Notes under the pieces: model-generated
The model's database searches: none
The model's input: only the letters and a program-made list of their open reading frames with translations
What the model was told of the DNA's origin: nothing
Shown here: piece after piece, positions 22,955 through 31,170 of the stretch
Position numbering within the stretch: position 1 is the first letter of the stretch
How the letters are laid out: each line of letters opens with the position of its first letter
Assembly: GCF_002006795.1 (NCBI RefSeq)
Contig: NZ_MVDN01000010.1
Span: 35,523 to 69,176 of the forward strand
Length of the DNA stretch: 33,654 nt
Reading direction: 5' to 3'
DNA from: Wohlfahrtiimonas populi
GTDB lineage: Bacteria > Pseudomonadota > Gammaproteobacteria > Cardiobacteriales > Wohlfahrtiimonadaceae
Program-made: the position numbers and the translations under genes

Positions 22955-22975
22955 GTAACAATATATACATAATAA

Positions 22976-23000
22976 AAAACCAGTTCTTTGAACTGGTTTT
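22976..23000. terminator. Bidirectional terminator between fumarase and mscL
   Basis: An 11-bp stem AAAACCAGTTC / GAACTGGTTTT with a TTT loop and A/T runs on both sides, between convergent genes. Confidence 0.9.
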
Positions 23001-23019
23001 TATGTTTAATGCTCAATAT

Positions 23020-23448
23020 TTATTTTTCAGCTTGTTTCGCCAACAAATCACGAATTTCTTTCAAGTAATCTTCTGAAGTTGGTGCTGCTGGTTCAGCTGG
23101 CGCTGCTGCCGCCGCTTCTTCTTCCGCACGCTGAGTTGCTGCCATCACTTTATTCACAGTTTTCATAATTGCAAACAACACAACTGCTGTGATTAAAAAT
23201 GTGATTAAAGCACTCAATACAGAGCCCACGTTGAAAGTTACGCCTTTCACTTGGAAAACCATGTTACCCAAAGCATCATCTGCTGATTTACTGCCTGTGG
23301 TTACTACGAAAATCAAACTAATGATTGGTGTTAATAAACCCTCTACAATTTTATTTACGATCGCTGTAAATGCACTACCGATCACAACACCCACTGATAA
23401 ATCAAGGATGTTACCGCGCAATAAAAACTTTTTAAATTCTTGTAACAT
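23020..23448 (-). CDS. mscL: Large-conductance mechanosensitive channel MscL
   Basis: A 142-residue channel that opens under membrane tension to release solutes during hypo-osmotic shock. The N-terminus FKKFLLRGNILDLSVGVVIGSAFTAIV is nearly invariant in MscL. The second helix is at about 78-100 and the cytoplasmic bundle SEDYLKEIRDLLAKQ ends the protein. An Ala/Glu/Pro-rich linker at 108-125 is longer than usual. It is convergent with the fumarase gene. Confidence 0.96.
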   Translation of the reverse strand: MLQEFKKFLLRGNILDLSVGVVIGSAFTAIVNKIVEGLLTPIISLIFVVTTGSKSADDALGNMVFQVKGVTFNVGSVLSALITFLITAVVLFAIMKTVNKVMAATQRAEEEAAAAAPAEPAAPTSEDYLKEIRDLLAKQAEK

Positions 23449-24473: not shown

Positions 24474-25148
24474 ATGCTCAATCAATGGCCAAAAAACTCC
24501 AATCCTAAATTCATCTTATCTTTCAGTGGTGGTAAAGACAGTATCTTGGCGCTCTATCATGCATTACAACATGGTGAATGTGTTGGCTTAATCATGATGT
24601 TATCGGATGAAGGCGATCATTCCCGCTCACACGGTGTGCCAATGTCCATCACACAAAAGCAGGCTGATTCATTGAACTTCCCTATTCTCAGCGCACAATC
24701 TAGCTGGGATGATTATGAAGTGAATTATTTACAGCTCTTGGAAGATGCCAAACTTAAAGGTGCAGAGCTTTTAGTCACCGGCGATATTGATGTGCCAGAA
24801 CATGCATCATGGCATGAACAAATCGTACAAAAAGTAGATTTAGATTTACATATACCATTATGGAATCGCCCCCGCAGAGAAATTGTTGAAGAGTTTGTGA
24901 ATCGTGGTTTTAAAGCTATGATTGTTTCAGTGAACCTCACAATGGGCATGACAACTGAAGATTTAGGCAAAATACTTACATTAGAGATGATCCAAAACTT
25001 AGAAGATCGTGGTATTGATCCTTGTGGCGAAGCAGGTGAATTCCATACATTGGTCATAGATGGGCCAATTTTCAAATCGCCCATCGAAGTCTTCCCTATT
25101 GATATTCGTTCTAATGGCACGAATGCATTTTTGCAGCTTACATCTTAA
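24474..25148 (+). CDS. Diphthine-ammonia-ligase-like PP-loop ATPase
   Basis: A 224-residue ATP pyrophosphatase. The PP-loop SGGKDS is at 18-23, EGDHSRSHG at 46-54, TGDID at 102-106 and CGEAGEFHT at 184-192, the marks of the DUF71/Dph6-like family. In eukaryotes the family amidates diphthine on EF-2; bacteria lack diphthamide, so the bacterial substrate is unknown (some members have been linked to cobalamin-related steps). AAAGGA stands before the ATG at 24474. The 3' end overlaps the convergent TrpF-like gene by 11 bases. Confidence 0.85.
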   Translation: MLNQWPKNSNPKFILSFSGGKDSILALYHALQHGECVGLIMMLSDEGDHSRSHGVPMSITQKQADSLNFPILSAQSSWDDYEVNYLQLLEDAKLKGAELLVTGDIDVPEHASWHEQIVQKVDLDLHIPLWNRPRREIVEEFVNRGFKAMIVSVNLTMGMTTEDLGKILTLEMIQNLEDRGIDPCGEAGEFHTLVIDGPIFKSPIEVFPIDIRSNGTNAFLQLTS

Positions 25149-25701
25149 AGTTTAGCTCAATGCCTAATGGACGAGATTGAATATTGGGTAACAAAGCACT
25201 ATCTTTCCAATTCCCTGATAAAAACACATTACTCAAATCTATATTTTTGAGTAATGTCCAATTTGGCTCTAAAATTTCACCAACATGCCCACCTAATAAG
25301 TAAAAATCTACATGTTGGTAATTCATTTTCGGTGCATCATCTTTCAAATGAGCAATTTTGATAATTTTAATGGATTCAGGCAGTTGTTCACGCAATTTAG
25401 TGATGAAAGCTTGCGTTTCCCAACCATTCAACAAAATTGCATAGAGCTTTATTTCATTCACCACATATAAAATATCTGCTAAATCTGAGTTTTGAAAAAT
25501 ACCAATGTGCTTTAAAGGTGAATCCTTGGCAATCTCTTTGGCATCTTCAATCGCAATACCATAAGGCGACGTCAATACGAAGATAAAGCCCGCATAAGTT
25601 GCACCCGCAGCATGCGCCGCTATTAAATCTGTACGATTCGTAATGCCACTGACTATGGATTCTTTCGATTGTAATGTTTTCAATTGTGTTAACACTGCCA
25701 T
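25138..25701 (-). CDS. TrpF-like (phosphoribosylanthranilate isomerase) pseudoenzyme
   Basis: A 187-residue protein aligning by eye with the TrpF half of enterobacterial TrpCF: GITNRTDLIAAHAAGATYAGFIF, IGIFQNSDLADI, LREQLPESIKI, NYQHVDFYLL and FDWSLL-like EPNWTLLKN. Active-site residues are lost: the general-base Cys is S18, the phosphate-site Arg in SPR is Y47, the QLHG motif is LLNG (90-93), and the general-acid Asp is G137. It ends after the eighth strand, without the SSGVE-type phosphate loop and final helix. It should not isomerise phosphoribosylanthranilate. It is preceded by a tyrosine-type attenuator and AAAGGAA lies before the ATG. It may bind a ligand or act as a regulator; that is inference. 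Confidence 0.75.
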   Translation of the reverse strand: MAVLTQLKTLQSKESIVSGITNRTDLIAAHAAGATYAGFIFVLTSPYGIAIEDAKEIAKDSPLKHIGIFQNSDLADILYVVNEIKLYAILLNGWETQAFITKLREQLPESIKIIKIAHLKDDAPKMNYQHVDFYLLGGHVGEILEPNWTLLKNIDLSNVFLSGNWKDSALLPNIQSRPLGIELNFKM

Positions 25702-25719
25702 TTCATTTCCTTTAGGTAT

Positions 25720-25747
25720 AAAAAAAGCCCGCTTTCTAGCGGGCTTT
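25720..25747 (-). terminator. Attenuator terminator before the TrpF-like gene
   Basis: On the minus strand AAAGCCCGCT, loop AGAA, AGCGGGCTTT and further T. It lies 19 bases before the TrpF-like start and downstream of the leader peptide. Its 5' arm CCCGCT (25738-25743) is complementary to AGCGGG at 25795-25800 in the leader, giving an alternative antiterminator. The sequence resembles the E. coli trp attenuator stem (AGCCCGCC / GAGCGGGCTTTT). Confidence 0.88.
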
Positions 25748-25765
25748 CATTTGATATAGGGTGAA

Positions 25766-25846
25766 CTATTTTTCATTCACGAACAGCCATATCTCCCGCT
25801 TGTGGAGATAATAGTAATAATAGTAGTTCGCAAAAAATTGGTTCAT
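25766..25846 (-). CDS. Tyrosine-rich leader peptide (26 residues)
   Basis: An ATG at 25846 opens a 26-codon frame ending in TAG at 25766-25768. It reads MNQFFAN, six consecutive Tyr (codons 8-13: TAC TAT TAT TAC TAT TAT at 25808-25825), then LHKREIWLFVNEK. A run of six codons for one amino acid directly before a hairpin is the mark of attenuation leaders (compare seven His in hisL). No strong Shine-Dalgarno site is visible, which is a weakness. Two Phe codons come earlier and one Trp later, but Tyr dominates. It overlaps no other gene. Confidence 0.8.
   Translation of the reverse strand: MNQFFANYYYYYYLHKREIWLFVNEK
25790..25810 (-). promoter_or_regulatory. Leader 1:2 hairpin of the tyrosine attenuator
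   Basis: On the minus strand TATCTCC, loop ACAAGCG, GGAGATA: a perfect 7-bp stem. Its 5' arm begins with the last Tyr codon, so a ribosome stalled in the Tyr run would cover it and free AGCGGG (25795-25800) to pair with the terminator's 5' arm. Confidence 0.78.
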
Positions 25847-25881: not shown

Positions 25882-25909
25882 ATCATAATCTTTTAAAAAA
25901 AGAAGTCAA
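25882..25909 (-). promoter_or_regulatory. Promoter of the attenuator/TrpF-like unit
   Basis: On the minus strand TTGACT (25904-25909), a 16-base spacer and TATGAT (25882-25887); both hexamers match the sigma-70 consensus at five of six positions. The -35 box overlaps the stop codon of the upstream GltP-type gene. Transcription would start near 25875, leaving about 30 bases before the leader ATG. Confidence 0.75.
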
Positions 25910-28503: not shown

Positions 28504-29748
28504 ATGAGCATTACATCAGCACTTTCTATCGTGCACCCTATCACTTTGTCTCACGGCTTGAATGCTAAAGTTTGGGATGAAAGCGGTAAATCTTACATCG
28601 ACTTCGTTGGTGGCATTGGTGTTTTAAACTTAGGTCACTGTAATCCTAAGATCGTTGCTGCAATTACTGAACAAGCACAAAAATTAACTCATTATGCTTA
28701 CAATGCTGTACCACATGGCACATATCCGAAAGCAATGAGTGCTTTGGCAAAGTTTGTTCCAACTGCAAAGCCAATGGTGGGCATGTTCACTAACTGCGGT
28801 GCAGAAGCGACAGAAAATGCTTTGAAAATTGCACGCTTACAAACTAAGCGCACTGGCGTAATCGCATTTGATGGTGGCTTTCATGGCCGTACATTGGCTG
28901 CATTGAACTTGAATGGTAAAGTTGCACCCTACAAACAAGGCATTGGCCCATTGCCTGGTCCTGTTTATCATTTACCTTTCCCAAGTAAAGACACAGGTGT
29001 CACTTGCGCTGAAGCTAAAGCAGCATTGGCACGTTTATTCAGTGTAGAAGTAGATGTACAAAATATCGCATGTATTTTCCTAGAGCCAATCCAAGGTGAA
29101 GCAGGCTTCCAATTGATGGATAAAGAGTTCGCACAATACTTGCGTGAATTCTGTGACCAAAATGGCATTTTATTAGTGTTAGATGAAATCCAATCAGGCT
29201 TTGGTCGTACAGGTAAACGCTTTGGCTTTGAACATTTAGGCATTGAACCAGATCTATTATTGCTCGCAAAAAGCATCGCAGGTGGCTTGCCATTGGGTGC
29301 GGTAATGGGCAAAGAGCATTTGATGAATAATTTACCAAAAGGTAGCTTAGGTGGTACTTATTCAGGCAATCCTATTGCTTGTGCTGCGGCATTGGCAACT
29401 ATGGAAATTATGTCTGATGATCAGCAAATGGCACAATGGAATCAGCAATACACACAAATGATCGAAAAGTACCATGCAAAATGGCAAACTGAAGGCTTAA
29501 CATGTGTTGGCCCATTAACAGGTGTGGATGCAATGCGTGGCATTACTTTATTGAATAAAGATGGTTCAGCAGGCACAGAAATATTGGCAAAAGTACTAGC
29601 AAGTGCTCGTGAACGTGGTTTGCTATTAATGCCAAGTGGTAAAAGCCGCAACATCATCCGCTTATTAGCACCGATTACAATCGAACCTGAAGTATTAGAA
29701 GAAGGCTTGAACATTTTAGGCGAATGTTTAGCTGAAGCAAATCAATAA
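28504..29748 (+). CDS. Class III aminotransferase, probably 2-aminoadipate transaminase
   Basis: A 414-residue PLP enzyme of the GABA/ornithine aminotransferase class. PLP Lys is K256 (LLAKSIAGGLPLGAV), D227 contacts the ring (LVLDEIQSGFGRTG), and NCGAEATENALK and GGFHGRT are present. It closely resembles the Pseudomonas putida 2-aminoadipate aminotransferase as I remember it (HPITLSHG, VGGIGVLNLGHCNP). It is followed 33 bases on by HglS, which uses its expected product 2-oxoadipate. GABA as substrate is the main alternative. GGAGG lies seven bases before the ATG. Confidence 0.85.
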   Translation: MSITSALSIVHPITLSHGLNAKVWDESGKSYIDFVGGIGVLNLGHCNPKIVAAITEQAQKLTHYAYNAVPHGTYPKAMSALAKFVPTAKPMVGMFTNCGAEATENALKIARLQTKRTGVIAFDGGFHGRTLAALNLNGKVAPYKQGIGPLPGPVYHLPFPSKDTGVTCAEAKAALARLFSVEVDVQNIACIFLEPIQGEAGFQLMDKEFAQYLREFCDQNGILLVLDEIQSGFGRTGKRFGFEHLGIEPDLLLLAKSIAGGLPLGAVMGKEHLMNNLPKGSLGGTYSGNPIACAAALATMEIMSDDQQMAQWNQQYTQMIEKYHAKWQTEGLTCVGPLTGVDAMRGITLLNKDGSAGTEILAKVLASARERGLLLMPSGKSRNIIRLLAPITIEPEVLEEGLNILGECLAEANQ

Positions 29749-29781
29749 CAATAGTAAAGAATTCATTTGGAGGAACTCACC

Positions 29782-31170
29782 ATGTCAAATACAGCATTTA
29801 TCTCGCCTGATTTAATCAGAGCGAAATTTTCCAGAGCAATGTCCCACATGTACCGCGATGAAGTACCATTATATGGTGACTTAATGCAGTTGGTTTCTGA
29901 TGTAAACCAATCAACATTGGACAGCAATCCATTGCTTCATAAACACTTGATCAAAACTGGCGAAATCGAGCGCTTAGATGAAGAACGCCATGGTGCAATT
30001 CGTTTGGGTACAGCAGAAGAATTGAACACAATTCGCCGCTTATTTTCAGTCATGGGCATGTTCCCTGTTGGTTATTATGACTTAACTCCTGCGGGTGTTC
30101 CAGTTCATTCAACAGCATTCCGTGCGATTCATGAAGATTCTTTGAATGTCAGTCCATTCCGCGTATTCACATCATTATTGCGCTTGGAATTGATTGATGA
30201 TGCTGACTTACAAAAAGAAGTTAAAGAAATTCTTTCTCAACGCAATATTTTCACTGATGGCGCAATTCGCTTGATTGAAAAGAATGAGAAAGAAGGCGGT
30301 TTGAATGAAGCAGATGCTGATGAATTCATTAAAGAAGTGCTAGAAACTTTCCGCTGGCATTCAAATGCAACAGTAACAGCTGATCAATACCAAACTTTGC
30401 ATGATCAACACCGCTTAATCGCGGACGTTGTAGCATTCAAAGGCCCACACATTAACCACTTAACGCCAAGAACTGTGGACATTGATGTGGTGCAAGATAT
30501 GATGCCAAAACGTGGCATTACGCCAAAAGCAGTTGTGGAAGGCCCACCTTCACGTAAATGCCCTATTTTGCTTCGTCAAACAAGCTTTAAAGCACTACAA
30601 GAAAATGTACGCTTTACAGATCAAGCAGATCAAAATGGCACAGGCAATCACACTGCTCGCTTCGGTGAAATTGAGCAACGCGGTGCAGCATTAACGCCAA
30701 AAGGCAGAATTTTGTATGATCAATTGTTGAATCAAACGCGTGCAGAAGTTGGTACAACCAATGAATCTAATGCTGATCAATATCGTGCAGCATTGGCAAA
30801 ACACTTTGCAGCATTCCCAGACAGCTACAAAGAGTTGCACGATAACAAATTAGCATATTTTGCTTACTATCCAACACAAGATGGCATCGCAAAAGCAGGT
30901 TCATTTGCAGCAAATGCTACGATTGAAGATTTAATCGCAGCTGGTGCAATCAGCTATGAACCAATCGTTTATGAAGATTTCTTGCCAGTGAGCGCTGCAG
31001 GTATTTTCCAATCTAACTTGGGCGACAATGCACAAGCGGAATATACAATCAGCTCAAATCAAGAAGAATTCATGAGAGATTTAGGTACAAAAACAATCGA
31101 TGAATTAGAGTTATATGCTTCATCCCAAGCACGTTCGTGGGAAGCATGTAAAGAAGCTTTGGCGATCTAA
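29782..31170 (+). CDS. hglS: 2-oxoadipate dioxygenase/decarboxylase HglS (DUF1338)
   Basis: A 462-residue Fe(II) enzyme converting 2-oxoadipate to D-2-hydroxyglutarate and CO2, known from lysine catabolism in Pseudomonas putida; E. coli YdcJ is a relative. The metal and substrate residues of that enzyme are visible: H70 and R74 in ERHGAIRLGT, H226 in GPHINHLTPRTVD, and a Glu in ARFGEIEQRGAALTPKG (E296 here). The start is the ATG at 29782, seven bases after GGAGG; the upstream TTG at 29767 lies in the ribosome site. It is co-transcribed with the aminotransferase. No D-2-hydroxyglutarate dehydrogenase gene is in the window. Confidence 0.9.
   Translation: MSNTAFISPDLIRAKFSRAMSHMYRDEVPLYGDLMQLVSDVNQSTLDSNPLLHKHLIKTGEIERLDEERHGAIRLGTAEELNTIRRLFSVMGMFPVGYYDLTPAGVPVHSTAFRAIHEDSLNVSPFRVFTSLLRLELIDDADLQKEVKEILSQRNIFTDGAIRLIEKNEKEGGLNEADADEFIKEVLETFRWHSNATVTADQYQTLHDQHRLIADVVAFKGPHINHLTPRTVDIDVVQDMMPKRGITPKAVVEGPPSRKCPILLRQTSFKALQENVRFTDQADQNGTGNHTARFGEIEQRGAALTPKGRILYDQLLNQTRAEVGTTNESNADQYRAALAKHFAAFPDSYKELHDNKLAYFAYYPTQDGIAKAGSFAANATIEDLIAAGAISYEPIVYEDFLPVSAAGIFQSNLGDNAQAEYTISSNQEEFMRDLGTKTIDELELYASSQARSWEACKEALAI

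Follow-up and report, generated by a model that had tools for sequence, protein, structure and literature searches.

We report a maintained gene of Wohlfahrtiimonas, here called PTF (a TrpF-derived protein), which lacks the active-site residues of TrpF and stands behind a leader that, from its sequence, is built as a ribosome-mediated attenuator for tyrosine. We lean slightly towards the reading that an attenuator has passed from Trp to Tyr while its enzyme acquired a new pocket and role, and that the leader would be a genuine Tyr-sensing attenuator of an effector of aromatic metabolism. Of the two parts of the finding, the change of amino-acid identity in the attenuator is the more surprising. 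The gene lies in a stretch of 33,654 nucleotides (the window, meaning the whole stretch analysed) from a bacterium of fly larvae, a member of Wohlfahrtiimonas with 93% protein identity to W. larvae.

A TrpF homologue without the TrpF active site

The gene and its ribosome-binding site are as follows.

25138..25701, minus strand: PTF, 187 aa, ATG start
25708..25713, minus strand: Shine-Dalgarno sequence AAAGGA of PTF, 6 nt upstream of the start, read from the sequence

PTF matches the Pfam family PF00697 (PRAI; E=4e-17, 62.9 bits), and its top NCBIfam model, bifunctional TrpCF, gives 101.6 bits against a cut-off of 380, which leaves PTF far under all TrpF equivalog cut-offs. For comparison, 12 TrpF domains were taken from functional TrpCF proteins of this bacterial family and set against eight PTF orthologues. 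In the alignment, PTF carries the substitutions C18S, H92N (QLHG to LLNG), D137G, G142E and, on the phosphate side, G164N; the residues S18, N92, G137, E142 and N164 are fixed in 8/8 orthologues, and the ancestral residue is invariant at each site among the functional domains. The catalytic Cys of strand beta-1 and Asp of beta-6, for instance, are found in 12/12 functional domains, and Ser and Gly take their places in 8/8 PTFs. The Arg of the TSPR motif is replaced by Y47, or by Phe in one orthologue. The protein terminates with strand beta-8 and so has neither helix alpha-8 nor the phosphate loop NSxVE; the pair of phosphate-binding loops expected after beta-7 (GG) and beta-8 (NSxVE) is thus not found, G164N being invariant. 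The initial annotation, drawn from a single sequence, had listed S18, Y47, LLNG, G137 and a stop ahead of the final phosphate loop and helix, together with a good ribosome site, the AAAGGA given above. These sequence claims hold, except that the residue lost at Y47, which it called a phosphate-site Arg, is named here only as the Arg of TSPR, and the clade-wide loss for which it proposed a check is borne out in 8/8. In the sister-genus PTFs, strand beta-8 is replaced by an unrelated C-terminal tail, SPPPKKRALLC, so this end of the barrel is variable.

The TrpF scaffold, also claimed by the initial annotation, is retained in the predicted structure. An AlphaFold2 model built on a 20-row alignment shows the eight strands of the TrpF barrel without alpha-8 (pLDDT 85, pTM 0.85), and another model, for which only the orthologues were aligned, gives the same picture (82.3). 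Its closest solved relative is Escherichia coli TrpCF, 1pii, with Z 23.2 and an rmsd of 2.4 A over 177 residues (Foldseek, VIA-align), as compared with Z 17-19 for the next TrpFs and <15 for unrelated barrels. GlpP (3kts) also appeared in the Foldseek list, but its similarity was no better than that of unrelated TIM barrels and gives no ground for a claim of RNA binding. PTF thus shares the TIM barrel with the TrpF domain of TrpCF (PF00697; 1PII and the Ignatzschineria-type proteins; 34-47% identity), and differs from it in being unfused to TrpC, in lacking the Cys, Asp, TSPR Arg, QLHG His, phosphate loop and alpha-8, and in standing behind a leader with Tyr instead of Trp codons.

Distribution, selection and neighbourhood

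Orthologues with the same losses are present in 6/6 Wohlfahrtiimonas and 2/2 sister-genus genomes. Among approximately 85,000 GTDB species genomes, PTF was found nowhere beyond Wohlfahrtiimonas and one sister-genus MAG; a search of 369 Gammaproteobacteria at E<=1e-20 returned nothing except ordinary TrpCF, viral contigs yielded no PTF, and a plasmid collection gave only ordinary TrpCF-like matches (<37% identity among the matches listed). Between close pairs, the dN/dS of PTF is 0.04-0.10 (Nei-Gojobori), the same range as for the TrpCF of those genomes, and in comparisons across the two genera PTF has changed even less than TrpCF (pN 0.29 vs 0.36). Neither stops nor frameshifts occur in the eight genomes, which span 54-93% identity. 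PTF is therefore a maintained gene under purifying selection, neither decaying nor one-off, in line with the initial view of an intact frame. The second trpF that had been proposed as a check exists as well: the window genome has a complete TrpCF inside trpD-trpCF-trpB-trpA. An 80%-complete family member (genus g2) has no TrpF of any kind, which reflects either an incomplete assembly or loss of Trp synthesis.

The leader and PTF are constant in three genomic contexts whose surroundings differ, which marks the two together as a functional unit. In the window, this unit is flanked by the gene of a dicarboxylate/amino-acid symporter and by a convergent one for a Dph6-like ATP pyrophosphatase. No Trp or Tyr synthesis genes were found among its named neighbours there, and no co-conserved neighbour that would hint at its function was seen across the three contexts. 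Elsewhere in the window, a 2-aminoadipate transaminase (28504-29748) adjoins the 2-oxoadipate dioxygenase/decarboxylase HglS (29767-31170); the region 28504-31170 forms a lysine-catabolism cluster with a GcvA-like LysR regulator nearby, beside a DctA/GltP-like symporter.

The leader as a probable tyrosine attenuator

The initial annotation had rightly spoken of dedicated regulation, its most informative point, without naming the kind of switch. That regulation takes the form of a Tyr-codon attenuator, whose predicted elements are listed below.

25882..25909, minus strand: sigma-70 promoter TTGACT-16-TATGAT; TTGAC(A/T)-16-TATGAT/TAATAT at 8/8 loci
25766..25846, minus strand: leader peptide ORF MNQFFANYYYYYYLHKREIWLFVNEK, 26 codons
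25808..25825, minus strand: six consecutive Tyr codons (control codons)
25790..25810, minus strand: 1:2 hairpin UAUCUCC / GGAGAUA, forming without ribosome stalling
25739..25799, minus strand: 2:3 antiterminator, GCGGG (25795-25799) with CCCGC (25739-25743), extended by GAUAUGG / CCUAUAUC
25718..25747, minus strand: 3:4 intrinsic terminator GCCCGC...GCGGGC, then T7

The promoter, the Tyr-codon leader, the mutually exclusive 1:2, 2:3 and 3:4 hairpins and the terminator form one unit common to 8/8 loci. The Tyr run comprises 5-6 consecutive codons, except in W. chitiniclastica, where it reads YYDYY (four Tyr and one Asp); TAC and TAT interchange synonymously across the loci, Tyr being otherwise kept. 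The elements CTCCAC, GCGGG, CCCGC and GCGGG and the T run are present at all eight loci, which amount to only seven distinct leaders. When region 1 is masked and region 4 absent, folding gives a long 2:3 antiterminator at every locus; two-sided compensatory changes are seen in 7/16 consensus 2:3 pairs, and the full leader folds far better than its shuffles (z -5.2). Without masking of region 1, the 1:2 hairpin is not always thermodynamically favoured, so kinetics matter, and the Shine-Dalgarno sequence at the leader start is weak at some loci. The anatomy is nevertheless that of a ribosome-mediated attenuator for Tyr, and a response of the leader to Tyr in vivo would be expected from it.

Other leaders with Tyr runs were sought in the same genome and order, and the four-Tyr matches examined, loci being given for part of the matches, either were not arranged as a leader with a terminator or fell within ordinary genes or on the strand opposite to them. 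Neither tyrosine leader peptides of such a kind nor a TrpF pseudoenzyme is described in the literature searched, a weak negative because most subscription papers lay outside its scope. The same holds for a Tyr-run ribosome attenuator. Its nearest counterpart is the AroR leader of aroF in Corynebacterium glutamicum, likewise a ribosome-mediated attenuator with a Tyr codon ahead of an aromatic-pathway gene (PMC11802643); yet AroR has the codons Phe-Tyr-Phe, is reported to be unresponsive to Tyr, and controls a DAHP synthase unrelated to PTF (PMC11802643). The Phe leaders of pheA and pheST (RF01859) have aromatic amino-acid attenuation in common with the PTF leader, but carry Phe codons and precede different genes, and the Rfam Phe_leader score of 27.9 is below the threshold of 55.

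Ancestry of the switch and of the gene

Across the family, the leader of the trp operon carries tandem Trp codons, for example MTHITSVSRNFWWQISHKAGDLVVSWQK ahead of trpD in the window genome. The DNA core of the trp leader aligns with that of the Tyr leader (ATCTCTCACAAGGCGGGAG vs ATCTCCACAAGCGGGAG), and the downstream peptide segments are alike (HKAGDLVV in the trp leader vs HDAGDMVV in the Tyr leader). In a scan of 18 family genomes with the core motif, each match with a terminator behind it belonged either to the Tyr leader of PTF or to a Trp leader, the latter before trpD or what appears to be trpE. A covariance model, R1, was then built from family trp leaders only, starting after the Trp codons. 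It recovers the Tyr leader at 8/8 loci with 53-67 bits (E 3e-10 to 2e-7), values that constraints shared by attenuators could inflate somewhat, and its best other match is an ordinary terminator at 36 bits. That background match is a terminator-like stretch at 22972-23056 on the minus strand, between a fumarase-like gene and mscL. In the window, R1 marks the following segment.

25720..25809, minus strand: trp-leader-homologous segment, R1 53.4 bits, E 1e-7

Recovery of all the Tyr leaders by a model of trp leaders argues that the switch is, apparently, a descendant of the trp attenuator re-specified from Trp to Tyr. The two classes have in common the layout of regions 1-4 (RF00513 and the family trpD/trpE leaders) and the core ATCTC..CAC..GCGGGAG..CCCGC..GCGGG-T7; they differ in that the PTF leader has a Tyr run, not WW, and a single downstream gene. 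Tandem Trp codons are absent from the Tyr leaders, a single W further on being seen in the window leader only. With the Rfam model RF00513 (Trp_leader), the window leader scores 24.0 against a gathering cut-off of 41. The genuine trp leaders of the family, at 39.6-40.2, also fall just under that cut-off and so would be missed by default annotation. In genomes of the W. chitiniclastica type, a further Trp attenuator, MTHLTQYLWWHISSSREMVLCVQ, precedes what appears to be trpE, apart from the trpD leader.

In a maximum-likelihood tree, the PTFs come together as a single clade (100/100), which is joined (93/88) by TrpF from a third family genus, presumably Ignatzschineria. Descent from the TrpCF of Wohlfahrtiimonas itself after the genus arose was considered and rejected (AU p 0.011 against it, with long branches as a caution). 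Horizontal replacement of the Wohlfahrtiimonas TrpCF, considered since PTF stands nearer to the Ignatzschineria-type TrpF, is not supported: the TrpC halves follow the family, and the resident TrpCF therefore looks vertical. A weak alignment between the N-terminal helix of PTF and the final helix of TrpC fits a start of PTF within what was once the end of trpC. PTF probably arose early by partial duplication, or else was transferred between members of the family.

A conserved pocket and what it may do

We propose that part of the trp operon, comprising the attenuator and the end of trpCF that encodes TrpF, was copied and came to stand alone early in the lineage of Wohlfahrtiimonas and its sister genus, and that a run of Tyr codons then replaced the Trp control codons in its leader. 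Transcription would read through past the terminator only if charged tRNA-Tyr were scarce and the ribosome stalled. The protein has lost the catalytic and phosphate-binding residues of TrpF, a loss which implies that it does not isomerise PRA, and has kept the TIM barrel with different, strongly conserved residues on the catalytic face. When Tyr is short, it would most likely act in the chorismate branch as a non-catalytic effector that binds a ligand or a partner, and might, for instance, shift synthesis from Trp towards Tyr. We give this scheme as a whole, from a trp fragment to a Tyr-shortage-induced, non-catalytic effector of aromatic balance, an even chance. It builds on the residue losses, their clade-wide conservation, selection, the attenuator anatomy and the trp-leader homology, all of them read from sequence; the function of PTF, its ligand, its production on Tyr starvation and its action via the pocket are what we infer beyond these. 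The initial annotation had likewise suggested that the protein might have come to bind a ligand or to regulate.

The Tyr pathway itself exists in the family, since TyrA is present in 18/18 genomes and type II DAHP synthase in 17/18; with these counts we reject the idea that PTF exists because the Tyr pathway was lost. The PF00793 gene of the window genome is KdsA.

Conservation within PTF is concentrated on the catalytic face, where 29/54 residues are invariant as compared with 30/116 elsewhere outside the strand cores (other-face loops, helices and remainder; Fisher p 5e-4). The conserved polar pocket comprises N92, W94, K115, H118, D121, K125, Y128, E142 and N164. This enrichment, with residues unlike those of TrpF, points to a conserved, remodelled pocket. 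Such a pocket would fit an enzyme equally well: the many invariant polar residues could form a new active site whose reaction would serve the supply or salvage of Tyr, the gene being induced when Tyr is short, and biosynthetic attenuators usually control enzymes. However, PTF is a single gene without pathway partners, its phosphate loop and alpha-8 are lost, and the Tyr pathway looks complete without it, TyrA and type II DAHP synthase being present in Ignatzschineria-type genomes that have no PTF. We regard a neofunctionalised enzyme as the main rival, possible though rather unlikely, and favour an effector of aromatic balance, while noting that the data separate the two poorly.

Alternatively, PTF might inhibit TrpCF or another enzyme of Trp synthesis, or act as a decoy for it, through protein-protein contact by an inherited domain surface. 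Its direct descent from the TrpF half of TrpCF would suit such a part, as would the regulatory logic, in which chorismate is spared when Tyr is short; yet the outer helices, with 10/44 invariant residues, are poorly conserved relative to the catalytic face, which makes this improbable. That PTF is still a phosphoribosylanthranilate isomerase with displaced residues, as its overall fold and identity to TrpF domains might suggest, is highly improbable: in 8/8 neither a Cys at beta-1 or beside it nor an acid where beta-6 ends is present, the phosphate loop is gone, and an intact TrpCF is at hand in the window genome. Least probable of all is that PTF is a fragment of trpCF in decay and owes its open frame to chance; the C-terminal truncation and restricted lineage might speak for this, but the selection analysis already contradicts it, and it sits badly with the conserved promoter, attenuator and Shine-Dalgarno sequence.

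If the effector reading is true, PTF and its leader offer a readable example in which an RNA switch has come to sense another amino acid and the function of its gene has changed as well, and in which the ancestral switch and the ancestral enzyme both persist in the same genome and can be compared with their derivatives. Annotation pipelines would name PTF a phosphoribosylanthranilate isomerase and so mask a different conserved function, for which the Tyr signal gives a concrete condition under which to seek it. It seems that in these bacteria part of the tryptophan pathway has been rebuilt for a new job linked to the supply of Tyr.
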